From NCBI GenBank assembly GCA_029688905.1, contig JARULB010000001.1, positions 496,001 through 560,000 of the forward strand: a stretch of DNA of 64,000 nucleotides, in the 5' to 3' direction. Below, in pieces: positions 8,137 through 34,872 of this stretch (within the stretch, counting starts at the first letter, position 1; every line of letters begins with the position of its first letter). The translations under genes were made by a program, and so were the position numbers. The notes under the pieces are model-generated. The model ran no database searches, was not told where the DNA came from, and saw only the letters and a list, made by a program, of their open reading frames with translations. This DNA comes from Balneolales bacterium ANBcel1. Its GTDB lineage: Bacteria; Bacteroidota; Rhodothermia; Balneolales; Natronogracilivirgulaceae.

Positions 8137-10620
8137 TTATTTCACCAGCATCATTCTCCGTACATCGCTGAACGATCCGGCCTGCAGGCGGTACAGGTAG
8201 ACGCCGCTGGCCAGGTTGCTGCCGTCGAAGGTCACCGAATACTGCCCCGGAGCCTGCGCCGTGTTGTTTACCAGTGTCTGTACGAGACGGCCGGTAATAT
8301 CGTAGACCTGCAGCGAGACATCCGCCTGCTCGGCAACTTCATACCGGATCTGCGTGGTCGGGTTGAACGGGTTGGGATAGTTTTGAGAGAGTTCGAATCT
8401 CACCGGAGTCGCATCGTCTCTCACATCGGTGGGGGCAGGCGGCACCCAGTTCTGCACATATTCGATCAGCCATTTCAGTGCCGGACGTTCCTCGCCGTTG
8501 GGATAAATCAGCTCGGCATCATCCATCCATATCCCGGGTCTCCATCCCCAGAAAGTGATGCCCTCCACGGCAGGATGCTCCCAGAACACCGGGAAAATGC
8601 GTTGCATGTTTTCAAGCTGAAGCTGGTCTGAAGCCTCCTGCGACAAGCTCGAGTTCCCCTGGATGTCCATTTCGGTGGCCTGAATGGGCAATCCGGTTTC
8701 GGCCAAATAGTCCAGAACGGAACGTATCTGATTTTGCGAGCCCGGGGTCGAGAAGGCATGGGCCTGAACGCCGATTACATCAATCAAGTCCCGTTCCATG
8801 AGGTCTTCGATGATTCGACGGTAGTTCCGGGCGTTCTGGGTGCCCCAGGTGTTGCTGCTCACGATGTTGTAGTCATTGATCATGAGCTTGCTGTTGGGGA
8901 ATCGCTCACGGGCCATTTCAAAGGCGGTGATGATCCAGTCGTGACCGGTTTCACCGGTTCCGCCAAGAGCTTCAATATAGTTGGCATCGCCGCTTATACC
9001 GTCAGGCAGCTGGTGGTTGTTGGAACCTTCGTTCACCACCTCCACATACTCCATGTCCGGGTAGCGCACGGCCAGGGTGTCGTACCACTGGGTGATGGCT
9101 TCAAGCTGTTCTTCCGTGCTCAGGTCATTGATCCAGCCAGGCTGCTGTCCGCCCCAGGTAAGCACGTGAAATCGGTACGGGAATCCGTTATCCCTGGCGA
9201 GTTGGTAGCTGGCATCCAGATTGGTCCAGTTGTAGGTCCCTCGCGTACCTTCCACACTTCCCCATTTACCGGCGTTTTCGGCGGTTACCTGGTTCCAGTA
9301 ATTGGCAAAATTGGCAATTTGGGGTGGTGACCAGATGTTGCCAATCCACTTGTCCTGCCCATCGGCAATGGGCGGACCGGGATGGATTTCGAAAGGATCA
9401 TCCGGAAATTCGGAATAACCGGGGGTTACGTTATTCAAATTGGAAACCGTAAAGAACAGGTCGGAACGTCCGAACGCGAATTTGTGCAGGTGGGTTTCGT
9501 CTTCACGCGCACCGATCCAGAATGATACGGTAGTCGAGTCTTCAAACACATGGTAGGTAACCGACTCTTCATGGTAATTACCTTGTGAGATATTTATCCA
9601 TCTCCAATCTCCAGATGCCGAACTTTCCCCGGTAACAACTTCATGCGGTTGAGAAGCTCCGACACCAACAAGTCCGTTGGCAACAATCCAACCATCTATA
9701 CTTGCCGGATCCGGTTCGGTGAAAAGCGAATCCGGATAAAAGAAGCTGTCGGAGTCAAACTCAGCAACATCTGTCCTGACCCTTGCAAACAGATCGTATT
9801 CTCCTGCATAGGGGAAAAACACATCAAACTTGAGCAGGCGATCCTCGCTTCCTGGGATGTCAAGATTGTCGGTCACGGGATAGACATAGGTGATGGAATC
9901 TCCGTTATCTACCTCCTCGACGACTTCGAAGTCGGCACCTATCTCGGCATCGGCTACTTCCAGGACGATCGGTTTCCTGCGCGCAGGCGCTTCCTCGGTC
10001 TGCACGATTTGCAGGTTGTCGACATAAATGGTCTTGTCAACATTTTCCGGGAAGGAAAAATGAACGGGGACCCTGATGGGAAAACGCTGTTCGGCACTCT
10101 CAGGAACCGAAAAATCAAAGGTGTATTCCTGCCATTCATCGGTAGGCAATTGAAATCCTCCTCGCAGCGCGTTGAACTCGCCGTGATCTAAGTGCCAGAC
10201 GGAGAATACCGCGATCGCACCGGGCTCTTCCGCTCGTGCCCACATGGAGAAGGTGTATGAGGCACCCGCTTCCACATACAGATCATAGCCGCTGACCTGA
10301 ATATCCCAGGCATTATCTCCCAGTTCGTGCACGGTGAGCTTGACCGCACGTTCTCCGTGCTGTACCGGGTCGTCTACAATTTCAAACGTTGCGTCTCCAC
10401 CATTTGCCAGATACAGCTCCCAAAACGGCAAATGATAATCTGCGGTATCAACGACTCCAAGCTCGGAGTCTTCAAAGCTGCCATTTTCATTGACGATTAT
10501 TAAACCATTATCCGCATCGTTGTCATTATTGGCATTTGCAGTGCCAACGAGGAAAAGAAGCAGAATCAGAGACCAGGCAAGATGCCCCATCTTATTGCAA
10601 GCAGTAGTTTTATTTTCCAT
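8137..10620 (-). CDS. T9SS-secreted GH10 endo-xylanase with CBM4/9-like module
   Basis: 827 residues with signal peptide (WSLILLLFLVGTANA). Residues about 45-210 form a CBM4/9-like module (NGSFEDSELG ... TIYVDNLQIV). About 215-405 is a second beta-rich region, unassigned, which also occurs in the paralogue at 49122-51644. The GH10 barrel (about 425-735) carries the acid/base E531 in VVNEGSNN and the nucleophile E650 in ATEMDI. The last 80 residues are a T9SS sorting domain (QNYPNPFNPTTQIRYEV to MMLVK). It should cleave beta-1,4-xylan outside the cell. The upstream DNA (10867-10908) holds a 19-bp palindrome next to a GGAAGCG-type half site, shared with the CE1 and GH43 promoters. Confidence 0.92.
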   Translation of the reverse strand: MENKTTACNKMGHLAWSLILLLFLVGTANANNDNDADNGLIIVNENGSFEDSELGVVDTADYHLPFWELYLANGGDATFEIVDDPVQHGERAVKLTVHELGDNAWDIQVSGYDLYVEAGASYTFSMWARAEEPGAIAVFSVWHLDHGEFNALRGGFQLPTDEWQEYTFDFSVPESAEQRFPIRVPVHFSFPENVDKTIYVDNLQIVQTEEAPARRKPIVLEVADAEIGADFEVVEEVDNGDSITYVYPVTDNLDIPGSEDRLLKFDVFFPYAGEYDLFARVRTDVAEFDSDSFFYPDSLFTEPDPASIDGWIVANGLVGVGASQPHEVVTGESSASGDWRWINISQGNYHEESVTYHVFEDSTTVSFWIGAREDETHLHKFAFGRSDLFFTVSNLNNVTPGYSEFPDDPFEIHPGPPIADGQDKWIGNIWSPPQIANFANYWNQVTAENAGKWGSVEGTRGTYNWTNLDASYQLARDNGFPYRFHVLTWGGQQPGWINDLSTEEQLEAITQWYDTLAVRYPDMEYVEVVNEGSNNHQLPDGISGDANYIEALGGTGETGHDWIITAFEMARERFPNSKLMINDYNIVSSNTWGTQNARNYRRIIEDLMERDLIDVIGVQAHAFSTPGSQNQIRSVLDYLAETGLPIQATEMDIQGNSSLSQEASDQLQLENMQRIFPVFWEHPAVEGITFWGWRPGIWMDDAELIYPNGEERPALKWLIEYVQNWVPPAPTDVRDDATPVRFELSQNYPNPFNPTTQIRYEVAEQADVSLQVYDITGRLVQTLVNNTAQAPGQYSVTFDGSNLASGVYLYRLQAGSFSDVRRMMLVK

Positions 10621-11110: not shown

Positions 11111-12349
11111 TTACTCTTGAGTTACATTGCTCCAAAGATTTGGCAGAAACCGATAGTACAAAAGATGCCGCCAGGTTGACCAGTCATGACCTCCGTGTCC
11201 ACCGACATAGTACTCGTGAGTAATTTCATGGGCATTCAAGGCTTCGTGCAGTGCCGCAACCCTGTGATTAAAAAAACTGTGGACTTCCTTTGTCCCCTGG
11301 CCCACAAACAGATAGTTTACTTTGTCATTAACCCCGGGATCTGTCAGAAAATGTTTCAAAGTGGTTTCCGCATGAACGTCACCGGCACTGAGTATGCCGA
11401 AACTGGCAAACAGATCCAGGGAGCGAAAACCGATGACCATGCTATGCCGTCCGCCCATGGATAATCCTGAAAGAGCCCGGCCTTCCGGGCTTCGAATTGT
11501 GCGGTACTCCTGGTCAACAAACGGGATCACATGGCTCCTGAGCTCTTTTTCAAACAAGTCAAAGGTCAGTTCGGCGTGTCGAGGGTGATTTCTGTGGATG
11601 ATCTGGTTATTGGGGATCGCGATAATCATGGGCCTGGCATTATCTTCAGCCAGCAGGTTGTCCATGATAAAATTGACACGCCCGTCATAGACCCAGTTTG
11701 ATGGCAATTCACCACTTCCACCCACAAGGTAAAGCACCGGATACGATTTGGTTTCATCATAACCCGGCGGGGTGTACACATACAACTCACGATGACCGTT
11801 GGTTACTTCAGAGTGATAGACATGGCGGGTTACACGTCCATGCGGAACATTTTTGGCATCATAGTAAGACGGGCCGTCTCCGTGCACTACCAACTGGCTG
11901 TATGGTGGCATTGCTGTAAACGCGGCACGGGTGTTGCCTGGGTCGGCCATCTGAATTCCGTCTACTACGATGTGATAGGCGTACATGTCGGGTTTAAGCG
12001 GACCAATGGTCAACTCCCAGATACCATCCTCTTTTTTCTGAAAGGGAATGGGCTCCTCCCCCAGCTCATTGGATGTGTGGATGGCACCTGCAGGCAGCTT
12101 CACACTGCGTGCCTCTGGAGCGTAGATCCTGAATGTTACCGTCTGATCATCATGGACCTCAGGCGAGTTTACCGGAGCGCTGAACGGGGTCAGTCCCTCC
12201 TTGTCCCTGTGCGGATCAAATTCCAGGTTAACATTGGCTTGCTGTGCCGTTAACATCGCCGGCATCAATAATAACAGTACTGTAAATATGGCTGTTTTCC
12301 ATGTTTTTGCTGAATGAAGTATCGGGTTCAATATGTTTCCTCCGTTCAT
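11111..12349 (-). CDS. CE1-type esterase with CBM48-like N-terminal domain (third of three)
   Basis: 412 residues. A signal peptide (AIFTVLLLLMPAMLTAQ) is followed by a CBM48/E-set-like domain (about 45-165: VTFRIYAPEARSVKLP) and an alpha/beta-hydrolase domain of the esterase D/feruloyl-esterase type. The catalytic Ser is S297 in SGLSMGG and the likely His is in GGHGGHDWSTWR. It should remove acetyl or feruloyl esters from xylan. A strong Shine-Dalgarno GGAGG lies inside the first codons, 7 nt before a TTG at 12329-12331, so translation may really begin there; both starts keep the signal peptide. It is downstream of two similar esterases but 190 bp away, and more diverged than those two are from each other. 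Confidence 0.88.
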   Translation of the reverse strand: MNGGNILNPILHSAKTWKTAIFTVLLLLMPAMLTAQQANVNLEFDPHRDKEGLTPFSAPVNSPEVHDDQTVTFRIYAPEARSVKLPAGAIHTSNELGEEPIPFQKKEDGIWELTIGPLKPDMYAYHIVVDGIQMADPGNTRAAFTAMPPYSQLVVHGDGPSYYDAKNVPHGRVTRHVYHSEVTNGHRELYVYTPPGYDETKSYPVLYLVGGSGELPSNWVYDGRVNFIMDNLLAEDNARPMIIAIPNNQIIHRNHPRHAELTFDLFEKELRSHVIPFVDQEYRTIRSPEGRALSGLSMGGRHSMVIGFRSLDLFASFGILSAGDVHAETTLKHFLTDPGVNDKVNYLFVGQGTKEVHSFFNHRVAALHEALNAHEITHEYYVGGHGGHDWSTWRHLLYYRFLPNLWSNVTQE

Positions 12350-12539
12350 AATCAGTTGAGCTCAGATAAGTATGTTTTCATGATTCGCCAATCTGCCTGA
12401 GCAGGTGTTAGGCAATTCCGGGCAATGGCTTTTACCAGGCTTGGCATACATGTGCAGTTCCTCCCGACTCGAAATATAATTGCAAAATACCCTGCATATT
12501 CCATGAGGCCTGGAGTACCGCATCAATGATGCACAACAG

Positions 12540-14900
<2,361 letters not shown>

Positions 14901-15345: not shown

Positions 15346-17115
15346 TCAGAGCATACCTCGATCCTTGAGATTTTGAACCAGGTGTTCCTCATAAAACTTC
15401 GACTCATAATTATCCCGGATATCGGATATTACCCTCTCGTTGATGATATTTCGGTGGTGCTCCCGAAACCTGGTTTCAATGCGGTCCGACACTTCGTCAA
15501 AGCTAAGCTGCTTTTCCGGCAACACTCTGTTTGCCCAAACAAGGGCTGGGACAGCTCCCTTTTCGGGATGGTGAAACTCAACCGGGCCTATCACATCCCC
15601 CTGCTCAAGATCAATGACGACATGTTCTATTCCGGGTTGTGACCGTTGATTCCGAACATGCGTATTACCGTCACGATCCCGGTAAAAAACCCTAACCTGA
15701 ATTCTGTGTGCCAGTTCTGAAAAGGGCGTTCCGGCCTCGTACTGTGATTTCATTTCTTCAATCCGGGATTCACTTTCGGCATCGATAATCCGTGTATGGA
15801 CAGTTCTGAGCTGATAAAACAGGGAGTCCTTAACCTCTTCGTAAAAAGATATCAGTCTGTCTTCTGTCGATTCTGGAATCTGACTTTCTATCACATGATC
15901 ATTAAAAGCGATCAGAATCTCATTTCTAATTACCCAGTTGCGTGTGGCTGGTGTGAATATCTCTTCCAGCAGGCCGGCCTCTCTTGCAAGCTCACCTACC
16001 TTTTTCTCTCTGAGGGCGGAAACAATAAAGTTCCTGAGCCTCTCTTCTGCAAATGCAGGCGAGTCGGTCGGGATTAAAATGTTATTAAGCAGGTATAGGT
16101 ATTGTTCCAGGTCAACGGTATTGTCATTATATGTCAGTATCTCAAAATTGTTGCCGTGTTCCAGCTCTTCAGCGATAACGCTGCGGTAATGTCCTCCACT
16201 GAAAAAGTTTGGCTGTCTGGCCCACCTGTGAATAGTCTGAAATGCTTCGTCATTCCACTGCACTGATTCTTTCCCTACGAGGGATTCCAGGAAACGGTCA
16301 TACTCTTCCATACTTTTACTCGTGTAGGCATCCCTGACACGCCGCCTTACCTCTTCTTCCATTTCCTCAAAGGGATCAATACTTCTTTGGATGCGATCTG
16401 TGGCTTCCACGATGTAATACGCATTTTCATGTTGGATCACCTCCACATCTCCCACTTCCAATTCAAACACAACCGAATCAACGGGGAACATGACGCTTCT
16501 TCTCCATGTGGCCGGTTCGGCATATCCACCGGTTCGGGCGGACGCTTCATCCTGGGAATAGGCTTGAACGAGATCTGCAAAATTATCACCCGATTCTATT
16601 CTTTCAACAATCCCGGCGGCTTTCTCCTCCAGCGTCTCCTGCCGCTCTGATGCCTCATAGTGGTCTTCAAACAGTACAATCTGTCTGTACCTGACCTCAT
16701 GTTTCATGTTTTCATGGGCATCTCGAAGATAGGCCTCCGTGAGATACTCACCCAAAAACTCCTGTTCGAAGTATGCAGCCACCAGTTCTTCGTTGATATG
16801 TCTCTGCATGGGAAGAAGAAGCTCCTCTCTCTCATTCAGGTTTTCATCAAAAAAGCCAAATCGTTTATACTGATTGCCCACCATTTCGTTCATTACATTT
16901 TTATACCCCTCGAGCGCATCATCGTAGCGAACATGAGCCAACAAGTTTTGCGCATATGCATGCAGATCACCAAACGTCAGTTTATATGAGTCACCAATCG
17001 TATAAATAACATCTGACCCTACATCATGGTCTTCATTTCTTTCAGCATCCTGACAACCAGCTGCAAATACAAGTAATAGTAAAACAATCGAAAGTTTCTG
17101 ATGATACCGATGCAT
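15346..17115 (-). CDS. Parvulin-type peptidyl-prolyl isomerase lipoprotein
   Basis: 589 residues from the ATG at 17115, which directly precedes a lipoprotein signal (KLSIVLLLLVFAAGC). The PpiC/rotamase domain lies at about 135-240 (RYRQIVLFEDHY, TGGYAEPATWR, VIQHENAYYIVEATD). The rest is helical, as in SurA/PrsA-like chaperones, and a second degenerate parvulin-like segment is near the C-terminus (VRVFYRDRDGNTHVRN). It probably folds exported or outer-membrane proteins in the periplasm, and the position after the receptor and beta-helix genes suggests those as clients. A terminator at 17161-17203 separates it from them. The C-terminal segment is homologous to the fragment at 39367-39872. Confidence 0.83.
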   Translation of the reverse strand: MHRYHQKLSIVLLLLVFAAGCQDAERNEDHDVGSDVIYTIGDSYKLTFGDLHAYAQNLLAHVRYDDALEGYKNVMNEMVGNQYKRFGFFDENLNEREELLLPMQRHINEELVAAYFEQEFLGEYLTEAYLRDAHENMKHEVRYRQIVLFEDHYEASERQETLEEKAAGIVERIESGDNFADLVQAYSQDEASARTGGYAEPATWRRSVMFPVDSVVFELEVGDVEVIQHENAYYIVEATDRIQRSIDPFEEMEEEVRRRVRDAYTSKSMEEYDRFLESLVGKESVQWNDEAFQTIHRWARQPNFFSGGHYRSVIAEELEHGNNFEILTYNDNTVDLEQYLYLLNNILIPTDSPAFAEERLRNFIVSALREKKVGELAREAGLLEEIFTPATRNWVIRNEILIAFNDHVIESQIPESTEDRLISFYEEVKDSLFYQLRTVHTRIIDAESESRIEEMKSQYEAGTPFSELAHRIQVRVFYRDRDGNTHVRNQRSQPGIEHVVIDLEQGDVIGPVEFHHPEKGAVPALVWANRVLPEKQLSFDEVSDRIETRFREHHRNIINERVISDIRDNYESKFYEEHLVQNLKDRGML

Positions 17116-17160
17116 ATAGTTTAATTTATCGTAAGACATTCCATTACCAGGGTATAATAT

Positions 17161-17239: not shown

Positions 17240-19084
17240 TTATTTAATCAGTGTCATTGTACGTGCTTGTACCTGATCACCGACCGTCAGACGGTATACA
17301 TATACACCACTGCTGACGGACATTCCTGATTGTGTTTCGGCATTCCAGGTCACCGTATGGGAACCGGCATTCATGGAGTCGTTAATCAGGGTGGTAACAA
17401 GCTTGCCGGTAACATCAAATACTTCAAGTTTTACATCAGCGTTGTTCTGCAGTGTAAAGCGGATTTGAGTTGCCGGGTTGAACGGGTTCGGATAGTTCTG
17501 TGCCAGTTCAAAGCTGGTCGGGCTTTGCGGCATTCTATCCGGATTTTCAACAGAAACAGTTCCGAACTGAGGATCACGGCCTTCGTTAAGTGCGCTTTCC
17601 AGTTCAGCGTACAGGGCTTCCTTGTCTGCTTCGAATTGAGCCTTGCTGTCAGCAAACCAGTTGAGGTCACCAAGCGGCATGCCGCCAAGTCCGGCAGTCA
17701 GGTATGCACTGTTGCTGTAGGAAAGGTCAACCGGAATTGGCCAGTCCGGATATGGCATCATACCATCATCGCCACCTCTTTCTGTTTGTCTTTCCGGATC
17801 GATTCTCCACTTGGGCAACACATAGGGCCCGTCATCTGCGGTATCGACACTGAAGAGAATCAGCTCTTCAACCATTTCTGTCATCAGGTTTTCCGGATTG
17901 ACGAAATCGGGATTGCCTCCCATGACCCAGTTGCCTTCGTTGAAGAGCGGATAACGATCGTTGTCATCAAAGATCTCCTGGGTTCTGGAGTTCATGGTGA
18001 TCATCTGTGTGACCCAGTCACTACGATCCTGAGCTTCATTTTCGTTCAACTGCTGGACGATCTGGTCGAGTCGCTCATCCCAGAATACTCCATTGTTGAA
18101 GACCAGAATTTTTCTGTCAGCATCGCCATAACCTTCAAACGCTTCATCTCCTTCCGGCAGATGATTCACGTTGATAATACCGTGAGGCAGTTCATCCTGA
18201 TCCGTTTCCTCGATATCCAGACCGGGGAAATAACCCTGAACATTACTGTTCACGAACAGGTTGTTGGTAACTGTCAGGTTGGTATGATAGCCGAAGCTTG
18301 TGAAAAGCTGACCGGCAGCATTCACAAAGGTGTTGTGGTTGATAAACGCCCTTTCAAAATAGAAGCCGCGGAACTTGTACATCATACCCTGGGCCATCAC
18401 ATGCGTTGAGTTTTCAACAACAAGTTCACCGGTCGGGTGGGAAGTGTTGTCATAGACACCGCCATTTCTACGGCAAGCCTCACCGCTCATGTTCGCGAAG
18501 TAACTGTCACGGATATGCAGACTCGTATTGGGCACTGAGTTGGACTGAACAAAGATCCAGTTGTTATGCTCCAGGAGAACGTTATCAAATGTAAGCGTTT
18601 TTCCGGCTGTCTGAGCTTCAATAAGAGCCCATCCCTGGCTGTTATCCGTCGCACTTGCAGACGAAATCAGGTTTTTGAGGGTCAGGTCTTCACGGAACAT
18701 GAAGAAACCTCCGTTCGTGGCAGCACCTTCCACTGTAGAGCCGTGGATGTTAGGAGGCATTTGCTCACTTTGGCTTTGCACCAAGCGAGTATTGTCTGCG
18801 CCAACAACACGTATATGCCGTTCCGGCGTTGTCATTTGTCTTGTAAACCAGTAAACTCCACCGGGTACAAGTTCATATACACGTCCTTCCGGTGCATCTT
18901 CATCCAACTCGATGGCGTCTGCAAGGGTGTTGTCCAAAAACGATCCCGACACAACCGCGTCAAGGACGACAACGGTATCACCGCGTGTTTCAATGATAAC
19001 ATCATCCCACTCCTGTGCCACTGTGGAATTCAATCCCACCAAACACATCAATGCGACGAGCAACGGTAGCATTCTTTTACTCAT
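17240..19084 (-). CDS. T9SS-secreted parallel beta-helix protein, partner of the TonB receptor
   Basis: 614 residues with signal peptide (LLVALMCLVGLNSTVA), strong Shine-Dalgarno AGGAGG 9 nt before the ATG, and a C-terminal T9SS domain (QNYPNPFNPATQIRFTL to MTLIK). The body looks like a right-handed beta-helix: repeated short strands such as LTLKNLIS, LTFDNVLLEHN, LHIRDSYFANMSG, LTVTNNLFVNS. Similar folds occur in pectate lyases and chondroitinases, but no catalytic residue pattern is evident, so lyase activity should not be assumed. It follows the TonB receptor by 98 bp, the position where SusD would be in a classical Sus system. A glycan-capture or glycan-cleaving surface role is an inference. 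Confidence 0.8.
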   Translation of the reverse strand: MSKRMLPLLVALMCLVGLNSTVAQEWDDVIIETRGDTVVVLDAVVSGSFLDNTLADAIELDEDAPEGRVYELVPGGVYWFTRQMTTPERHIRVVGADNTRLVQSQSEQMPPNIHGSTVEGAATNGGFFMFREDLTLKNLISSASATDNSQGWALIEAQTAGKTLTFDNVLLEHNNWIFVQSNSVPNTSLHIRDSYFANMSGEACRRNGGVYDNTSHPTGELVVENSTHVMAQGMMYKFRGFYFERAFINHNTFVNAAGQLFTSFGYHTNLTVTNNLFVNSNVQGYFPGLDIEETDQDELPHGIINVNHLPEGDEAFEGYGDADRKILVFNNGVFWDERLDQIVQQLNENEAQDRSDWVTQMITMNSRTQEIFDDNDRYPLFNEGNWVMGGNPDFVNPENLMTEMVEELILFSVDTADDGPYVLPKWRIDPERQTERGGDDGMMPYPDWPIPVDLSYSNSAYLTAGLGGMPLGDLNWFADSKAQFEADKEALYAELESALNEGRDPQFGTVSVENPDRMPQSPTSFELAQNYPNPFNPATQIRFTLQNNADVKLEVFDVTGKLVTTLINDSMNAGSHTVTWNAETQSGMSVSSGVYVYRLTVGDQVQARTMTLIK

Positions 19085-19119
19085 AATATTGAGCCTCCTG
19101 TTTATTTGTTTTATTGATT

Positions 19120-19155
19120 AGGGCAGGGAGCATAATGGGATATACTCCCTACCCT
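19120..19155. terminator. Hairpin between TonB receptor and beta-helix genes
   Basis: Arms AGGGCAGGGAG and CTCCCTACCCT with one mismatch and a 14-nt loop. The T-run lies on the plus-strand side, so for the minus-strand genes it is more likely an RNA-stabilising or attenuating hairpin than a strong terminator. Confidence 0.5.
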
Positions 19156-19182
19156 TTTTGGGTGAATCGTTTCAACTACTTT

Positions 19183-22100
19183 TTAGAAATCATATCGCAA
19201 GCCAATTTCAAACGAACGGGCATCGTAGCGAATTCTGGTAAGCTGGTTAGATGGTTGCTCATCGAGCTGTCCATCGGTGTAGCGACGGAAGTAGCGATAG
19301 GTATTGGTGGGATTGTGCGTAATGTTCACTCCACTTATCGACATGCTTAAGCCCTCCACGGGCAGCCGCTGCCGAATTGAGAAATCCCATCCATAGACAT
19401 CTTCGTCAAACCAGTCAGCTTCCGGCCTTTGGCCAACCGAGGTGATCACATCACCCTGGAGCCTGAAAGAAACTCGTCCGGAGAAACCACGGTAATCTGC
19501 GCCAAGAGCCACGTTGATGATGTGGTCACCCTGAAAAAGCAGCCGCCCTGTACGGACAATTTCCTCTTCAACCAGAATCCTTCGCGGAGGAAATACCGTT
19601 TGATCCATAACTTCTTCGAATCGGATAAATCTGTAATCCATCTCGGAGAAGTTTCGGGTATAGTTCACATTCAAAACGGTGGAATTGAACGGAGCCGGCA
19701 AGTACCAGAAGTTGGTCTGCCAGTCAATTTCAAAGCCATGAACATGCGCCTTGTGAGGATTGTTCATGAATGTACTTACCTCATAACTGCCGGCCGGGGA
19801 ACTGAAGCCCATAGCCTCCCATGTTTCGGCCTCCGGGAAGTTGATTCCTTCCGGAAGGGCCCTGTTCAGCCTGTTAATACCATAGAAGAAGTCTGTAAGC
19901 TCTTTGTAGAATACGCCCACGGTAAACAAGCCGATCTCGTTATTGTAGAGCGCGACGTTAAAATCGAAATTGTTCGAAATCGTCGGCTCCAGAAACGGGT
20001 TACCTGCCTGGCCGCTGCCTGCACCCCTGAAAACATTGGGAATGAGCATGCTGAAGTCAGGACGCGAAATGGTTTTGGTATAAGCCGCCCGAAGATCCAT
20101 CCAGTCGGTAACGGAGAAACGTGCCTGAACATTCGGGAACAAATGGCCATAGTCTCTTTCGACTGTCGTGATCGAATCCGCCATTTGCAGCACATGGGGA
20201 TCCCGGCGCTCAAGGTTTATGACATCACCATAGGCACCGTGGGTTTCGTACACAAAGTTGGCATCATAGTCCATGTTGAAGTGCTCATAGCGAACACCGG
20301 CCATCAGGGTCAGACGCGTTCCAATATCAAAGGTACCCATGAAGTAACCCGCGGTAATTCTTTCAGTCAACGAGAAATCGTTCCGCTGTGAATCGGACTC
20401 ATGGATGGGCCAACCCGCCCCTTCAAGGGCCCGATAGAAGCTGTCCATCATATCCACGTCAATTACGCGATTCATTGGCCTTCTTCCATCAAAGAAATAG
20501 TCGCCACGGCCATCTCCGTAGCTGTGATCAATAAAGTCTTCAAATCGGAGTCTTCTGCTTGGATCAATACCCCGTTCAATGGCCCATTCCCTTGCCTCAT
20601 CATAGTGATTAGGAATTTCAAGATCATGAGCTTTCAAACGGTCACGTTCGTTATCCCTGTTTGTGATCACCATTCGTCCACCGGTCTGGAACTCGACAGA
20701 AACACCCCCACCGAGATCCACGGGCAAGGTAAAGTCGAGATTACCGGTGTAGTTTCTTTGGGTAAAATCGATTTCTTCCAGGAAATGCGTTCCTTGCTGA
20801 ATGGCGTTAGCCCAAGCTCCTTCGCGATACTCAATATCATAGAAATCGTCGAATCTTATTTCCAAACGATTCTGATCCGCGAAATCAGCTTCGGCATCAC
20901 CACTGTTGGCGAAGTAGAACTCATCCCAGTTATCGCCGTATCTCAAGTTGGTTTCCTGCTTGCTTCGTGCATGAGAAACCCCAAAATTTACCTGAAGATC
21001 GGAGAAATTGTATTCTCCCTGCAGCGCGTTGATCAGAAGCTGACGATCTCTGTCGTTTCGATTTATCCGATATGACCGCCGGCTGGCACCAAGCTCCAGG
21101 AAGTCCCGGAATCCCACATAGTCAGAGTTTGTGTGCGCGATGGTATTTTGCAGAGAGATTTTTCCGTTGGGAAGGCGATAGTCCATGATCACACTTCCAC
21201 CATACTCGGAAACGATATTAACTTCATCCATGAAGTTAATTTCATTCACTCGCATGACATGATCTCCATCAACAGCAGAATGGAACTCGTAGTTGGCCTG
21301 AATGATATCGGCACCGCCATCCCTTCTGTTGGCATTTGCCTGGACAAATACTCCCAGGCGATCATCAAAGAATCTGTCGCTCAAGCTTCCCCACATCTGA
21401 TAATTCTCACCGGGGTAGGTACGATCCTGTGTATTGTAGCTTCCTTGAACAAGCGCGTCGAATTTGAGTCCGGAGGGAGCTTCTCGCAATCTCAGGTTAA
21501 CGGCACCTCCTGTTGCGTTCGCTTCCATGTCGGGGGTAACCGCTTTGGTCACATCAATACCGTCCAGCATGTTTGAAGAGATGAATCCCAGGTTGGTGGA
21601 CCGGTCGTTCTGATCCGTAGACGGCAACTGGATACCATTCACACTGACCGTGTTCAGTTTGGCCTGCATACCGCGAATCACAATCTTGTCACCATGCTGA
21701 AGCGAAACACCCGGCAACCGGCTCAAAGCGGTAGCCGCGCTGGCATCGGGGAGCTCCCGGATTCTTTCTGATGAGACAATATTCTGAATAGTCCGTGATC
21801 TGAGCTGCTCGTTGATGGCCGAGGTTTGCCCCCTTGCCTGGGCAGAAATAATTACTTCTTCTCCGGTGATACCACTCCAGTCCATCACGATGACAACTTC
21901 TGTTTCCTCACCGGCTTCAACTACGACATCCTGCCGTACACGATCGTATCCGATATAGGTAGCTACAAGAGTATATTCGCCCGGCTGTACATTGCGGATG
22001 GTAAATCTACCTTCCATATTGGTAGATGCTCCTCTGTTGGTGCCCTCAATCATTACGGTGGCCCCCAGCAGGGTTTCATCATTCGAACCGTCAATGAGAG

Positions 22101-22194
22101 TGCCAGTGATGGTTCCCGTGTTTTGAGCTAATGCGTTTGTAGCTACAACCAGCAGAAAGGCTACTGCAAAAGCGCTTGTCATTTTTTTAATCAT
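19183..22194 (-). CDS. TonB-dependent outer-membrane receptor (SusC-like)
   Basis: 1003 residues from the ATG at 22194; the longer frame uses GTG at 22224, but 22194 directly begins the signal peptide (KKMTSAFAVAFLLVVATNALAQ). A carboxypeptidase-regulatory-like domain (about 25-105: GTITGTLIDG, VQPGEYTLVATYIGY) precedes the plug (ALSRLPGVSL, VIRGMQAKLNTVSVNGIQLP) and a long 22-strand barrel ending in aromatic RYDF. It should import oligosaccharides with energy from TonB/ExbBD, which is not in the window. Xylo-oligosaccharide is the probable substrate from context. No SusD gene is adjacent. AAGCGCTT occurs both 400 bp upstream and inside codons 6-8. Confidence 0.9.
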   Translation of the reverse strand: MIKKMTSAFAVAFLLVVATNALAQNTGTITGTLIDGSNDETLLGATVMIEGTNRGASTNMEGRFTIRNVQPGEYTLVATYIGYDRVRQDVVVEAGEETEVVIVMDWSGITGEEVIISAQARGQTSAINEQLRSRTIQNIVSSERIRELPDASAATALSRLPGVSLQHGDKIVIRGMQAKLNTVSVNGIQLPSTDQNDRSTNLGFISSNMLDGIDVTKAVTPDMEANATGGAVNLRLREAPSGLKFDALVQGSYNTQDRTYPGENYQMWGSLSDRFFDDRLGVFVQANANRRDGGADIIQANYEFHSAVDGDHVMRVNEINFMDEVNIVSEYGGSVIMDYRLPNGKISLQNTIAHTNSDYVGFRDFLELGASRRSYRINRNDRDRQLLINALQGEYNFSDLQVNFGVSHARSKQETNLRYGDNWDEFYFANSGDAEADFADQNRLEIRFDDFYDIEYREGAWANAIQQGTHFLEEIDFTQRNYTGNLDFTLPVDLGGGVSVEFQTGGRMVITNRDNERDRLKAHDLEIPNHYDEAREWAIERGIDPSRRLRFEDFIDHSYGDGRGDYFFDGRRPMNRVIDVDMMDSFYRALEGAGWPIHESDSQRNDFSLTERITAGYFMGTFDIGTRLTLMAGVRYEHFNMDYDANFVYETHGAYGDVINLERRDPHVLQMADSITTVERDYGHLFPNVQARFSVTDWMDLRAAYTKTISRPDFSMLIPNVFRGAGSGQAGNPFLEPTISNNFDFNVALYNNEIGLFTVGVFYKELTDFFYGINRLNRALPEGINFPEAETWEAMGFSSPAGSYEVSTFMNNPHKAHVHGFEIDWQTNFWYLPAPFNSTVLNVNYTRNFSEMDYRFIRFEEVMDQTVFPPRRILVEEEIVRTGRLLFQGDHIINVALGADYRGFSGRVSFRLQGDVITSVGQRPEADWFDEDVYGWDFSIRQRLPVEGLSMSISGVNITHNPTNTYRYFRRYTDGQLDEQPSNQLTRIRYDARSFEIGLRYDF
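22170..22177. promoter_or_regulatory. AAGCGCTT palindrome inside the TonB receptor signal-peptide region
   Basis: The octamer covers codons around residues 6-8 of the receptor. It may be coding coincidence, or a roadblock operator paired with the site at 22593. Confidence 0.3.
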
Positions 22195-23183
22195 AGTTTT
22201 GGTATTGCTTTTTAACGGATCCACTTTTTTAGTTATAAACCAGATGTGAAAAATTTTCAGCTCCGATGGCTGATTTGAAGAATATTTACTAACCGGGTTG
22301 GTTTACGGGCATCAGATGTCAAAAATCAACACTTGTACCCACGGATTCAATAGTTCACTGCACGATAATTATCTGTCTGTATCCCTGTATATCAACACGC
22401 AACTACAACCTTGCGCGGGCTTTGATTCCCTGTATCACGTTATCATCATAAGTACTTGTTATTCTGTACCTCACACATGCTTCAGGATGATTTTCATTGA
22501 CAAGGGGAAGCGGCCCCAGGCAACTCACATAGCATAATCGTTAAATATACACCAAAAATAATAAAAAACACTTCCGGCGACAAAGAAACAAAAAGCGCTT
22601 TTCGATATTTCCGGTACAGTTTGTTCATCTTCTAGTCGCAATCGTTTTTCAAGCAACCTGTTGCGTGTTTTAATCTGTTCGGAATCTCTGCAATCATCCT
22701 CCGAACGTTGTCCTGGCGCCCGAGAAAGATCGGGCAAACATTCGAGCAAATTTCTCTCACACTTAAAGGATAATGATTTTTTTTTGTTCCTCCAATAACT
22801 AAATCGGTAAGACAAAAAAAAGTGACGGCCTATCTCCGCCTTCAGAAATTGCAGTGCCCGAACTCAAAGTCGACACTTCAGCCACCAGGCAGCTTCTTAA
22901 CCAATATCCGTCTACTTATCATCACACCTTATGCTTACAAAAAATAACTTATACAGATCCAACGGAAATGGCAATAAGCATGGTAATGTTTATTTACTTA
23001 TCGGGCGGGCAGATACCTTGATACTGTGGAAACAGAAATAAAACGGAGCCATCAAGTTTCCGCCCAACTCATGGGCAGTCTTCCAAGGTATCCGACACCC
23101 GAAGAGCCGCTCACGAGGCAGCTTCCAATGTTACCGGTCACGCCCCGTGGTTTATGCACATCAAAGCCTTTGACCCTTTTTCG
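22195..23183. other. 989-bp gap upstream of the TonB receptor
   Basis: AT-rich, no supported gene; the 96-codon minus frame at 22525-22815 has no recognisable product. It holds the AAGCGCTT site at 22593-22600 and nearby (22543-22550) a sequence resembling a single half of the 19-bp palindrome. If the promoter is near 22600, the receptor mRNA has a leader of about 350-400 nt. No clear terminator for the GH43 gene was seen. Confidence 0.55.
22593..22600. promoter_or_regulatory. AAGCGCTT palindrome upstream of the TonB receptor
   Basis: Context AAAAAGCGCTTTT extends the symmetry to 12 bp (22591-22602). It is about 400 bp upstream of the receptor start. Confidence 0.45.
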
Positions 23184-25439
23184 CTACCTGATCAAGGTGA
23201 GGCTTCGAGACTGAACAAAATCTCCCGCCTTAATGCGGTAAATATAGACTCCACTGGCCAACCCGTCTCCATCAAAGTGATAGACATGTCGTCCGGCTTC
23301 CAGTGACCTGCCATCCAGCAACGATGCTACTCTTCTGCCGGTCACATCGTAAACTGCCAGGGAGACATCTGTTGCCTGGGGAAGTGTAAACCCGATGTTG
23401 GTGGACGGGTTAAACGGATTGGGATAATTTTGATCCAATGAAAACGCATAAGGCGTTTCAAGTGGATCATCGCCCGATGTGACATATTGATCGGAATGAA
23501 AGCGGAAACTTTGCAATCTTAAAAGCGATGTACCTTCATCACCCAAAAACCGCAAATATACGTCATGCCGACCGGTGACATCGTCTACCGGTACCGAAAA
23601 TGTCTGATAGTTACTCCATGATCCGGTATTTTCGATCGGAACTTCCGCAATCAGCTCGCCCGTTTCAATGGCACCCAGCCACACCTCTGCGATGCCCCCG
23701 TCATTTGGGCTGGAAGCACGCATACTCACGGCATTGGTAGTATGCTGATAGCCGCCATCCATACTGTCATCACCAAACTCCACACCGGCATAGAGGGCCC
23801 AGTCTCCATTATGGATATCACCGAGATATCCCGGCCTTCGCTGTGCCCCCGACCTGTTTACTGCGTGCCTGCCCATAATGTCCGTATACGCATCTCTGTA
23901 GATATACAGGTTGAAAAATGCAAACCGGCCTTCGACATACAGGCCCTGCTGGTTGCCTGTGAACGCGTTGAAGTCGATATCGGGATGGGGCTGATCCATG
24001 GATACCACATTAATCGACTCCCCTATTTGCGTCCAGTCGGCACCATCAGCACTGTAGAAACCGGTAAGTGTATGTTCATTGCGAACCAACTTGAGCCAGA
24101 CCTCCTGGCCGACCGTATTCGGAGTTTCGTACTCGATATCCTGAAAACTGAACGCCAAAACCCGCTGCCCTTCGTCGTTTCGGGAGCTGTACAATTTTGC
24201 AAAATGGGTTTCCGTGCCGTTGAAAATCCAGAGACCGGCTTCATGTGTCGGCTGCACCGGGTTGAAGTCAACTTTTGTGATCAGAGAGTATCCATGCTCT
24301 CCATCGTTCTTGATGACCGTGTTGTCGCCCTGATACGGCTCCATGTACAACCATCCGGGCCTTTCGTTCAATGAAATGGACGCCGGCCGGGTTTCTCCCA
24401 GTACGGACCATTCCGGATCCAGTTCGCTCCCGTTGAACATATCGGATTTGGGAACCATCCAGGGAACACCTCCGGACGGCAAATCCGGCGCCGTCTCGGC
24501 ATTATCGGTCGGATACCGCATCAGCGGCCACCCCTCATCATCGTAAACAACCTCGTGCAACAGCCCCTGACGCCCCTGGGCATACCAGTTGCCAACATGG
24601 TAACTGTGGCCGATCGCCCAGCTTGTTCCGTCATCAAGAGTGACGGCAGGAGAGATATGATTGGGGCGATCAAATGAATGCCGGCTGCCGAAATACATGT
24701 TCCCCTGCATGATCTCCCAGTCATCCGGATCATCCGACAACACCTCGCTGCGCATCACATACTGCTCACCGACCAGATGCTCCGCAAAACTGTAATAATA
24801 GTACCCGTTGTATTTCCACATGACCGGCCCTTCCGCCCATCCGTAGGGGTGATCCGGCGCCGGGTTCAACCAGGACAAATCAAGCACCTCTCCCGTAGGC
24901 TGGCCATCCTCCCCCAGCTCTACCATGTGATTGACGGAGTGACCGGCTTTGGTAAGCAAAAACCAACGACCAGACTCTTCATCAATGAAAATGGAGTTGT
25001 CGACACCCAGGTTATGGACTCCGGGAGGAAGATCCATCACCGTCGGGCGGCTCCAGGGGCCTTCCGGATCATCCGCCGTTACAAAGTACATACGGCCGCC
25101 GCCACGTCCGAAATAGTGCCAATAAGTATCGTGGTGATAGACCATGTGGCCGCCCCAGATTCCGCCACCGGGATCATTCCCGTATACGCTCCAGTCAAAC
25201 GGAACCGGCTGGGCGATAACCTCCCAATGCACCAGGTTACTTGACCTGTAAATTCTCGGGGTTACATTGAACGACGATCCAGACGAGTAGAAATAATCAC
25301 CGATTTTGGTGAGCGTAGGATCAGGATGATCACCGGGGAAAACCGGATTCACAAATGTTTGATGAGAAGGTGGCAGCTGTCCAAAACTCATCGCAACAAG
25401 CAAGAACGTGTAAAGCAGTGTAGTAATCGCAAATCTCAT
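23184..25439 (-). CDS. T9SS-secreted GH43 beta-xylosidase/arabinofuranosidase with CBM6-like module
   Basis: 751 residues with signal peptide (FAITTLLYTFLLVAMSFG). The five-blade GH43 domain starts near residue 28; the catalytic base is D40 in DHPDPT, the pKa modulator lies in GVDNSIFID, and the acid Glu is in GWAEGPVMW. A concanavalin-like GH43 C2 domain follows (GWLYMEPYQGDN, EAGLWIFNGTE), then a CBM6-like module (about 525-660, DWALYAGVEF, YLRFLGDEGTSLLRLQSF) and a T9SS sorting domain. It should act on arabinoxylan or xylo-oligosaccharides at the cell surface; xylosidase versus arabinofuranosidase is not decided. It has its own promoter region with both shared operator types. Confidence 0.88.
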   Translation of the reverse strand: MRFAITTLLYTFLLVAMSFGQLPPSHQTFVNPVFPGDHPDPTLTKIGDYFYSSGSSFNVTPRIYRSSNLVHWEVIAQPVPFDWSVYGNDPGGGIWGGHMVYHHDTYWHYFGRGGGRMYFVTADDPEGPWSRPTVMDLPPGVHNLGVDNSIFIDEESGRWFLLTKAGHSVNHMVELGEDGQPTGEVLDLSWLNPAPDHPYGWAEGPVMWKYNGYYYYSFAEHLVGEQYVMRSEVLSDDPDDWEIMQGNMYFGSRHSFDRPNHISPAVTLDDGTSWAIGHSYHVGNWYAQGRQGLLHEVVYDDEGWPLMRYPTDNAETAPDLPSGGVPWMVPKSDMFNGSELDPEWSVLGETRPASISLNERPGWLYMEPYQGDNTVIKNDGEHGYSLITKVDFNPVQPTHEAGLWIFNGTETHFAKLYSSRNDEGQRVLAFSFQDIEYETPNTVGQEVWLKLVRNEHTLTGFYSADGADWTQIGESINVVSMDQPHPDIDFNAFTGNQQGLYVEGRFAFFNLYIYRDAYTDIMGRHAVNRSGAQRRPGYLGDIHNGDWALYAGVEFGDDSMDGGYQHTTNAVSMRASSPNDGGIAEVWLGAIETGELIAEVPIENTGSWSNYQTFSVPVDDVTGRHDVYLRFLGDEGTSLLRLQSFRFHSDQYVTSGDDPLETPYAFSLDQNYPNPFNPSTNIGFTLPQATDVSLAVYDVTGRRVASLLDGRSLEAGRHVYHFDGDGLASGVYIYRIKAGDFVQSRSLTLIR

Positions 25440-27580: not shown

Positions 27581-28723
27581 TTAGTTGTCAAGTTTCTCGT
27601 TGGCAAGATCGACAATCGAAAAGAACGCCGGTTTCGGCTGCCATTCCCTGTCAAAGACCAGCGGATAATTGGTGCGGCCCCGTACCGGCCAGTTGTTCTT
27701 CCAGGAGTCACCATCGGTAACCCCCCAGAAGGTGACGCGGGTGATATCATCGCGATGGCGCAGGTAAATCTCAAATATATCCCGGTACCGGTCGGCCAGC
27801 TCCTGCTGGACCTCAGCCGGCAATCCGTCGGGGTAGGGATTCAGCTCGTCGCGGAGCTCCACCTGCATATTGACATCCGCTCCCATGTAATCCATGGCCT
27901 GTGGCAGCACATCAATCTCAATTTCGGTGACCATCACATCGATGCCGAGGGCGGCGAAATCCACGACTGTCTGTTCAACCTGTTCCAGATCAGGCCATTC
28001 CAGGTCAAAGTGCCCCTGGGTTCCGATACCGGTTATCGGGGCACCGTTTTCCTGGAGATACTCTACAATCCAGACCGCTCCTTCCCGCTTCGACGGAATT
28101 TCCAGCGAGTAATCATTATAGTATAACTCGGCATCAGGATCCGCTTCACGGGCATACTTGAATGCCTTGACCAGGTAATCCTCCCCGATGATATTGTACC
28201 AGGGGGATTCTCTCAGCGATCCATCCTCATTCAATGCCTCGTTGACGACATCCCAGCCATGGACGCGGCCCTTGTATCGTCCGACGACGGTGTGGATGTG
28301 ATTACGCATACGCTCCAGCAATGCTTCGCGACTTAGCGTATTGCCATCCTCATCCTCAAAAACCCATCGGGGTGTCTGGCTGTGCCAAACCAGGGTATGC
28401 CCGACAACAAACATGTCGTTCTCCTCCGCGTACTCAATGAACATGTCGGTCGCTTCGAAATCATACACACCCGGTTCCGGGTGGATGTTTTCCCACTTCA
28501 TCTCGTTTTCGGATGTCACGGCGTTGAAGTGCACGCGAGCAAGTGCGGCACCCTCCGGGTCTGCACTGGAGATCTGCCGGTGATTCATGGCGGTACCGAT
28601 CATGAACGCATCCTCGAAAACTTCATGCAGGGATGGAATTGGTGATTCCTCCGTCGGCGGAGGTGTCGTATCACAGGCTGCCAAAAGCAGCAGGGAAAGG
28701 GAGGTTACAGCAAATAATCTCAT
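27581..28723 (-). CDS. GH10 endo-xylanase lipoprotein (copy A)
   Basis: 380 residues: a lipoprotein signal (LFAVTSLSLLLLAAC, Cys17) and a single GH10 domain with no extra module. Acid/base is E162 in WDVVNEAL and nucleophile E267 in VTEIEI. Membrane-anchored single-domain GH10 enzymes typically trim imported xylo-oligosaccharides. It lies 41 bp downstream of the GPH symporter in the same transcription block. It is paralogous to the lipoprotein at 47805-48989 (shared PSLHEVFEDAF-like opening, WDVVNEA and the same overall layout). Confidence 0.92.
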   Translation of the reverse strand: MRLFAVTSLSLLLLAACDTTPPPTEESPIPSLHEVFEDAFMIGTAMNHRQISSADPEGAALARVHFNAVTSENEMKWENIHPEPGVYDFEATDMFIEYAEENDMFVVGHTLVWHSQTPRWVFEDEDGNTLSREALLERMRNHIHTVVGRYKGRVHGWDVVNEALNEDGSLRESPWYNIIGEDYLVKAFKYAREADPDAELYYNDYSLEIPSKREGAVWIVEYLQENGAPITGIGTQGHFDLEWPDLEQVEQTVVDFAALGIDVMVTEIEIDVLPQAMDYMGADVNMQVELRDELNPYPDGLPAEVQQELADRYRDIFEIYLRHRDDITRVTFWGVTDGDSWKNNWPVRGRTNYPLVFDREWQPKPAFFSIVDLANEKLDN

Positions 28724-32688: not shown

Positions 32689-34872
32689 TCAATTGTACCA
32701 GGGATCCGGCACGTGGATGATATTCTCCAATTCTATATAGTGCTGCAGATCGTGTTCCGGCTTTTCGTATCCGTCCGGAATCGGTCTGTTCGAGTAGGAC
32801 TGGAAATAGAGCACACAGGAATTACGCCAGCGCACGGCATCCCGCTCCTGGATCTTCAGCAGGGCACGCACATGCTCAAACCGTTCGTGGTCAATGAGTC
32901 CTTCCAGGGTATTCCAGGTGTCCTGCATCCAGCGAACCTGCTCCACCCCCTTGTAATATTTGTGGACAAGCTCTTCCCAGAGTGTGCGCCCGGATTCCAT
33001 TTTGTGATCCCAGCTCACATGATGGAACCAGAGCAGATAGTCTTCGGGAATACGATCGATATCGGCAAAAATTTCGGCAATGGGTGGGTGATATTGCTCA
33101 ACCGCATTGGATCCGGTTTCGGTACGGTCAAATCCGATGCCGTATTCAGAGGCGCGATGGTAGTACACTGCTGTCCAGTCGGCCCGGGGCAGATCGGCGG
33201 TCCATGGCGCCGGTCCATAGTGGTGTCCCTGGGCATAGAGGTGTGTGAGGCCCAGCGGCGAGCGGTAGTTCACACCCGCTTCCCGCGACTCCATCATGAT
33301 CTCCTTGACCGGTTCCAGTACGCGCGGGTCATTGGAAAAAGTCATTCGGGCCCATTCGTCGGCGATCTCCTCTGCGCCAAGAGTCCAGTCCCAGGCAAGG
33401 CGTCCGTATGCGTACCAACTGGACTGCACAAACGGGTGACCGGTCCAGTTACGGTCGGTGCCGGGATTGATGACACCGGCCATGCCGGTCATGTTGTATT
33501 CGAAGACGTTGCCTTCGATAATATCACCCACGGTCGAACGGCCGTCTTCAAGGGTGTAGGTTTCATCCCAAAGTACCTCTTCGTAGTAGGTGCCTTTGTA
33601 GGCGAGGTGCAGGTTGAACCCGAAGTACTCCTGGGTGATCTGCAGCTCGAGCATGGTGTTGGTCTCCGGAAGCGCGCCGAACAGCGGTGAGAACGGTTCG
33701 CGCGGCTGGAAATCGATCGGACCGTTTTTCACCTGGACGATCACATTATCGCGGAATTTGCCGTCAAGCGGCACAAACTCGTCATACGCTTCACGGAACC
33801 GGTCGTATTGTTCGGGGTCGTAGACGAACGCTCTCCAGATAACAATTCCACCATGGGGTTCAAGGGCATCGGCCAGTACATTGGCGCCTTCGGCGTGGTC
33901 GCGGCCGTAGCCATGCGGACCGGGTTGCCCCTCGGAATCCGCCTTCACCAGAAAACCACCGAAATCGGGAATATAGGAGTAGACCTTGTCCGCTTTATAC
34001 TTCCAGAACTCCTGAACATCAGGATCGAGAGGATCGGCCGTATCGAGTCCGCCGATCACAACCGGCGAATCAAAAAAGATCGAAAGATAGACCTGGATAC
34101 CGTACGGGCGGAAGATATCCGCGAGAACCGCCACTTTCTCCAGAAACTGGTCGGTCAGAATTTCCGGATCGGCGTTTACGTTGTTAATGGCCGTTCCGTT
34201 TATCCCCAGGGATGCATTGAACCGGGCGTAATCGGTGTAGCGGGGATGCTTGTATTCCGGAAGCGTGCCCCACTCCCACAGAGAGAGACCGGCGTAACCG
34301 CGCTCCACAAGGCGGTCCAGGTTGTCCCAATGATTAACCGTGCGATACTGGATCCTGGGAGCGCTTTTTACCGAAATATCAACCAGGCTGCTGTGCGTCT
34401 GGATCTTGCGCAGCAGGTGGAACACTCCGTAGAGCACGCCGATATCCTCATTGGCGGCAATCACAATCGACCGGTTGCCGTCCACTGCCTGCTGCCGAAT
34501 CAGATATCCTTCGGGACCTACAGCGGCCAGCTCATCTTCCATGCCGAGACCGGCGACAAGATCGGAGTTGTCCGGGGTGCCGATGACCAGCGCTCCATGT
34601 CCGGTTACATCGGAAAAGAACACGGCGGGGCGACCGAGCAATCCGGCCAGGCCCTCTTTCAACTCCGCGCGCGCTGCCGCCATGGTCGGTGACTGGTCAT
34701 CCTGCAGAACAATTTGGCGCATATGGCTGCGATACTCCTGCAGAAGGTCGGAATCCTGGACCAGGTCATATCGCAACCACATCCTGTAACCGTCTTCGGC
34801 CTGAGTTGAAACAGGACCGAGAACCAGGATGCCGGCCATCAAAAGAGTAAAAAAAACAGGTAAAGCCTTCAT
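32689..34872 (-). CDS. GH67 alpha-glucuronidase, exported
   Basis: 727 residues with signal peptide ([22 protein letters not shown]) and an AAGGGAG ribosome site upstream. Catalytic motifs are complete: E314 in [10 protein letters not shown] (acid), D387 in [10 protein letters not shown] and E415 in QITQEYFG, with the 28-residue D-to-E spacing seen in characterised GH67 enzymes. It removes (4-O-methyl)glucuronic acid from the non-reducing end of aldouronic acids. It follows the SDR gene by 197 bp and precedes GH3 by 72 bp. Its export means that its products are freed in the periplasm before uptake through the symporter. Confidence 0.92.

Follow-up and report, generated by a model that had tools for sequence, protein, structure and literature searches.

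Polysaccharide loci of the Bacteroidota are usually sought through the SusC/SusD pair, defined by a TonB-dependent SusC receptor (TIGR04056) and a SusD protein (PF07980/PF14322). Receptors of a different class, TIGR01782 (TonB-Xanth-Caul), are thought to work alone in the Proteobacteria, and we know of no T9SS in that phylum. Loci without SusC/SusD have been recognised as 'non-canonical PULs' (PMC9122927), and the open-access literature searched here gives no link between such loci and a T9SS-secreted partner. A relevant gene arrangement has been published for the Rhodothermus marinus xylan locus Rmar_1067-1081, where Rmar_1070 is listed as a 'TonB-dependent receptor' and the next gene, Rmar_1071, as a 'hypothetical protein' bearing a por-secretion tail, predicted to be co-transcribed with the GH10 gene; a few genes separate them from a SusC/SusD pair (PMC6987092). 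The accessible open-access sources do not describe the receptor and its tailed neighbour as a unit, and an earlier description elsewhere is possible.

We analysed a 64-kb stretch of the genome of Balneolales bacterium ANBcel1, referred to here as the window, in which a receptor and a T9SS-tagged partner lie among genes for xylan breakdown. The relevant features are as follows.

32689-34872, minus strand: GH67 alpha-glucuronidase, a glucuronoxylan context
27581-28723, minus strand: second GH10-like gene, recognised by sequence similarity, with a lipoprotein-type signal peptide by eye
23184-25439, minus strand: GH43 with CBM6 and a T9SS tail, upstream of the receptor (Pfam)
19183-22224, minus strand: TonB-dependent receptor, 1013 aa from GTG or 1003 aa from the ATG at 22194 (open reading frame, Pfam and TIGRFAM profile matches)
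17240-19084, minus strand: predicted beta-helix partner with a T9SS type A tail (profiles and AlphaFold)
15346-17139, minus strand: parvulin-type (PPIC-type) PPIase with the lipobox AAGC in its signal peptide (Pfam)
11111-14885, minus strand: three consecutive esterase-like genes (open reading frames and domain profiles)
8137-10620, minus strand: GH10 xylanase with CBM4_9 and a T9SS tail (Pfam)

Along the minus strand, the order from the GH43 gene onward is GH43 with CBM6, receptor, partner, parvulin, the three esterase-like genes and GH10, with 98 bp between receptor and partner and 100 bp between partner and parvulin. A preliminary description had read this locus as a TonB receptor followed by a T9SS beta-helix protein and then a parvulin, and the genes, coordinates and domains agree with it, as does the AlphaFold prediction of a beta-helix. 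The product of 13707-14885 is an Esterase-domain protein that resembles the feruloyl esterase part of a bifunctional xylanase/esterase, and GH3 and GH51 genes, recognised by their sequences, lie upstream of the receptor. With GH10, GH43 plus CBM6, GH67 and a feruloyl-esterase-like protein, the window contains a xylan polysaccharide utilization locus. The assignment of the unit itself to xylan draws on these neighbours, and we consider it well founded because GH67, GH3, GH51 and the second GH10 all lie upstream. A promoter scan of the locus found sites no more often than in shuffled sequence, a Bacteroidota-style promoter word matched once, which is the chance level, and terminator-like sites were only modestly above the mean. 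The operon structure is therefore deduced from gene spacing alone.

The receptor has a CarboxypepD_reg_2 extension, a Plug domain and a beta-barrel by Pfam. It scores 328.5 bits against TIGR01782, above the cut-off of 310, as do six further receptors of its clade that we tested, and it fails the SusC/RagA model TIGR04056 with 49.8 bits against a cut-off of 368. On profiles that we built for this purpose, the receptor scores 1235 with that of its own clade and 56.6 with that of the SusC proteins of the genome, and the pattern is reversed for the true SusC proteins, which exceed 1400 on the SusC profile. By these profile scores, the receptor is of the TIGR01782 class and is not a SusC deprived of its SusD; because this class is not tied to SusD, no partner need have been lost. 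SusD is absent from the window, as had been claimed, and genome-wide searches for SusD found four genes, all of them elsewhere, plus one sub-threshold PF14322 match. All four stand immediately behind a true SusC of their own, and none is linked to this receptor.

The partner comprises a signal peptide (by eye), a body at about residues 24-505 and a T9SS type A tail at about residues 525-614, which scores 42 bits against TIGR04183 (cut-off 23). The tail is a constant feature of the family, since Por_Secre_tail is matched by all 35 aligned homologues, and both SprA and PorU were detected in the genome, which therefore has a T9SS. Having a signal peptide and a C-terminal sorting domain in a genome with a T9SS, the partner belongs to the type A cargo of that system. 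The body has no match in Pfam or NCBIfam. Foldseek with a full-length model was dominated by matches to the Ig-like tail, so the body was folded separately; with 35 homologues in the alignment, AlphaFold2 predicted a right-handed parallel beta-helix with a region of mixed helices after it (pLDDT 93.3, pTM 0.93). The nearest solved structures are two-domain PL6 lyases, a weak similarity (Foldseek E=1.7e-4, TM 0.35-0.39), and the sequence profile of the partner matches residues 436-697 of BcAlyPL6, its C-terminal beta-helix (E=3.4e-5). Among 70 paired partners, conservation is highest at structural Asn, Gly and Tyr residues and in a PxGDLNWFP motif close to where the body ends; within this motif, Gly472 is present in 70 of 70, Leu474 in 99% and Trp476 in 94%. 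A sequence check of the same 70 found no invariant PL6-like Lys/Arg catalytic pair. We dropped a PL6 identity because the match covers the C-terminal domain, not the N-terminal beta-helix that carries the catalytic Lys/Arg and the calcium site of PL6 lyases, and the catalytic pair is not conserved. Similarity to DUF4957 and DUF5123 is weak, below the curated cut-off or marginal. A CBM35 occurs in two of the ten partner paralogues that were scanned, and one of these belongs to a second pair of the same genome (L091, G000:C2), which adjoins GH51-like, GH3-like and AraR-like genes.

We then asked how regularly receptor and partner occur together. A sample of 296 genomes from across the Bacteroidota contains the partner family in 39, and it occurs further in genomes of Balneolaceae, Gracilimonas, Balneola, Roseithermus, Melioribacter and Ignavibacteria and in MAGs labelled Neomarinimicrobiota or KSB1. 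Among 93 distinct receptors of the clade, 87 have a homologous partner directly after them on the same strand, so that the proposed adjacency is conserved in relatives; 85 of these partners match both body and tail profiles, and the other two have a flavobacterial-type tail recognised by eye only. The remaining six are followed by another T9SS protein (one) or by something else (three, one of them cut by the end of the stretch retrieved), or lie at contig edges (two). Receptors without a recognisable partner directly after them are those of L158, L163 and L164. Because most of the loci behind the 93 receptors were selected through the partner, we also counted two fairer subsets. The 20 loci ranked by the receptor contain 18 clade receptors, 15 of them with the partner (5 of the 15 also appeared in the partner search), and in 20 loci chosen by the partner outside Rhodothermia, the receptor is directly upstream in 16. 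The genome carries about 90 T9SS tails, by a rough estimate ~3% of genes, and chance adjacency should therefore amount to only a few percent. From these counts, we conclude that the adjacency of receptor and partner is not due to chance. It spans Rhodothermia, Ignavibacteria/Melioribacter and other Bacteroidota, and the neighbours vary from GH51/GH3/AraR-like genes to GH115, GH88, pectate-lyase-like, GH18 and sulfatase genes; the design is therefore not limited to xylan.

Other arrangements occur nearby in the family. Two clusters on another contig of the same genome, L093 (G000:C6:1-20000) and L094 (G000:C6:90000-109999), each hold three TIGR01782-like receptors that are more distant from the clade, and neither cluster has a beta-helix partner; for one receptor of a C6 cluster (L005), an in-frame TAA is reported. 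At L085 (G191:C1:76000-95999), several partner-like T9SS proteins lie in tandem downstream of a single receptor whose frame is split into two ORFs by a frameshift or an assembly error.

To examine whether the two genes share their history, we compared distances among 70 receptors with distances among their 70 partners and obtained a correlation of r=0.90, where the maximum in permutations was 0.114. Since species history alone can yield such a mirror-tree correlation, we added a test within genomes, in which partners are swapped between paralogous pairs. Swapping made the fit worse in 22 of 23 cases, with values usually about 0.9 for the true pairing and near or below zero for the swapped one. 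Because the true pairing fits better in nearly every swap, receptor and partner are inherited as a unit, which does not by itself prove that they touch.

Wherever it could be tested (25 loci and Rhodothermus L083), the xylan-type pair has the parvulin behind it, and in the loci examined no pair for another sugar is accompanied by one. Half of these parvulins have lipobox-like signals and half ordinary ones, and because the signals are divided in this way, a role in periplasmic folding is likely. Both the T9SS translocon and BamM, a component of the BAM complex in Bacteroidota, are known to contain PPI folds of the parvulin type (PMC12611786). A gene of ~775 aa with no Pfam match stands directly behind the parvulin, or with one gene in between, in many loci of Balneolales and Melioribacter (for example L077:12478-14808 and L080:14666-17002). 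Eight xylan-type partner copies are orphans, with neither receptor nor parvulin (L081, L140, L142, L201, L203, L204, L205 and L208); since there are at least eight, the partner can serve some purpose without them. The ANBcel1 genome has a third partner paralogue (L092:19084-20000, 55% identity over 280 residues), which has no receptor upstream and is cut by the end of contig G000:C5.

Our results directly support the pairing of the two genes, the conservation and co-inheritance of the pair, the T9SS tail and, as a prediction, the beta-helix fold. We give about even weight to the reading that receptor and partner together form a SusC/SusD-like unit for glycan capture and import that is built from different parts. 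The CBM35 in paralogues, the beta-helix fold, the T9SS tail and the co-inheritance make it plausible that the partner binds glycan, remains on the cell surface and is in contact with the receptor. In such a unit, the GH10 and GH43 enzymes, themselves T9SS cargo, would release xylan fragments outside the cell, and the partner would cross the outer membrane through the T9SS, lose its tail by cleavage and be held at the surface by anionic LPS, by the receptor or by both. There it would capture long xylan or xylo-oligosaccharides and pass them to the TonB-powered receptor, which would import the fragments, with GH67, GH3 and GH51 completing the breakdown. The PxGDLNWFP motif is a candidate receptor-facing or capping element because it is common to nearly all paralogues regardless of sugar, and the variable face of the beta-helix, together with the CBM35 in some paralogues, would set sugar specificity. 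The parvulin of the xylan-type unit probably aids periplasmic folding of receptor or partner.

Several observations fit a capture and import unit less easily. Operon linkage alone could explain the co-inheritance, the mature partner may be released instead of anchored, the orphan partners occur without receptor or parvulin, the receptors of L158, L163 and L164 lack a recognisable partner directly after them, and the weaker relatives in the C6 clusters have none. The orphans would also suit a partner that acts as a surface beta-helix enzyme, an uncharacterised lyase, hydrolase or esterase that cuts glycan outside the cell and is adjacent to the receptor only through a common operon. Polysaccharide lyases and GH28-like enzymes commonly have a right-handed beta-helix, and PL6 lyases are the nearest solved structures. 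However, the structural similarity is weak and the profile match falls on the C-terminal beta-helix of BcAlyPL6, the conserved positions are mostly Asn, Gly, aromatics and GDLNWF with no invariant PL6-like Lys/Arg pair, and one partner per receptor, tracking the receptor clade, would be unusual for an enzyme; we regard this explanation as improbable.

A partner that binds glycan on the surface independently, in a position like that of SusE/SusF and with no receptor contact, would leave the receptor to work alone, as the class of the receptor, the orphan copies and the sub-threshold similarity to the DUF families would allow. DUF5123 and DUF4957 are probable beta-helix proteins. In B. thetaiotaomicron, the annotation of the BT4109-4114 region places a DUF5123 gene next to one for a TonB-dependent receptor (PMC10434189). 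The near one-to-one adjacency, the short gaps and the pair-specific co-inheritance are closer to what SusC/SusD shows than to the variable position of SusE/F, and we consider the independent binder rather unlikely. Service in trans by a SusD encoded elsewhere is suggested by the four SusD genes of the genome, but we dropped it because each already sits behind its own SusC; the gulf between the score of this receptor and those of true SusC proteins on the SusC profile also argues against it, and it is very improbable indeed.

If receptor and partner do form a capture and import unit, glycan loci have been overlooked or called incomplete in large number, in Rhodothermia and Ignavibacteria as in other lineages with a T9SS. 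A broader proposal, which we find possible but put at a little short of even, is that the Bacteroidota have a second, independently built importer, in which a TIGR01782 receptor works with a T9SS-delivered extracellular beta-helix capture subunit or lid and which has diversified by paralogy to many polysaccharides, sometimes with a CBM. Two machines of the outer membrane, T9SS export and TonB import, would then be coupled in one uptake unit. The partner family, whose body has no model in Pfam or NCBIfam and which was left 'hypothetical' in Rhodothermus, offers a concrete and testable connection of T9SS cargo with TonB import.

Compared with SusC/SusD, the pair is alike in its TonB barrel with a CarboxypepD_reg_2 domain, in a partner directly downstream, in its setting within CAZyme clusters and in the co-inheritance of the pairs. 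It differs in its parts, a TIGR01782 receptor with a T9SS-tagged beta-helix protein here and a SusC with a helical SusD lipoprotein there, and tests for both defining genes place the pair outside SusC/SusD. With the Xanthomonas/Caulobacter-type receptors it shares a score above the TIGR01782 cut-off and the lack of SusD, and it differs from them in having the CarboxypepD_reg_2 extension and a dedicated secreted partner. The two-domain PL6 alginate lyases (BcAlyPL6, 7dmk) share the right-handed beta-helix predicted for the partner, which matches their C-terminal beta-helix, lacks a conserved catalytic Lys/Arg pair and adds a C-terminal helical region and a T9SS tail. DUF5123 and DUF4957 are likewise probable beta-helices, with a similarity to the partner that is sub-threshold or marginal. 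The gene order of L083 and L235 agrees with the published Rmar_1067-1081, for which no function or pairing of Rmar_1071 was proposed and which, unlike our locus, also contains SusC/SusD (PMC6987092). The Rhodothermus xylan cluster at L235:652-17857, in which the new pair stands together with one of the SusC/SusD type, offers a natural side-by-side comparison. The preliminary description had placed the beta-helix protein in the position of SusD; this holds in that the locus has no SusD, and it does not hold as a substitution, the TIGR01782 class not being tied to SusD and Rhodothermus having both. Because the two coexist in the Rhodothermus cluster, the pair is best seen as an additional design and not as a strict replacement of SusC/SusD.
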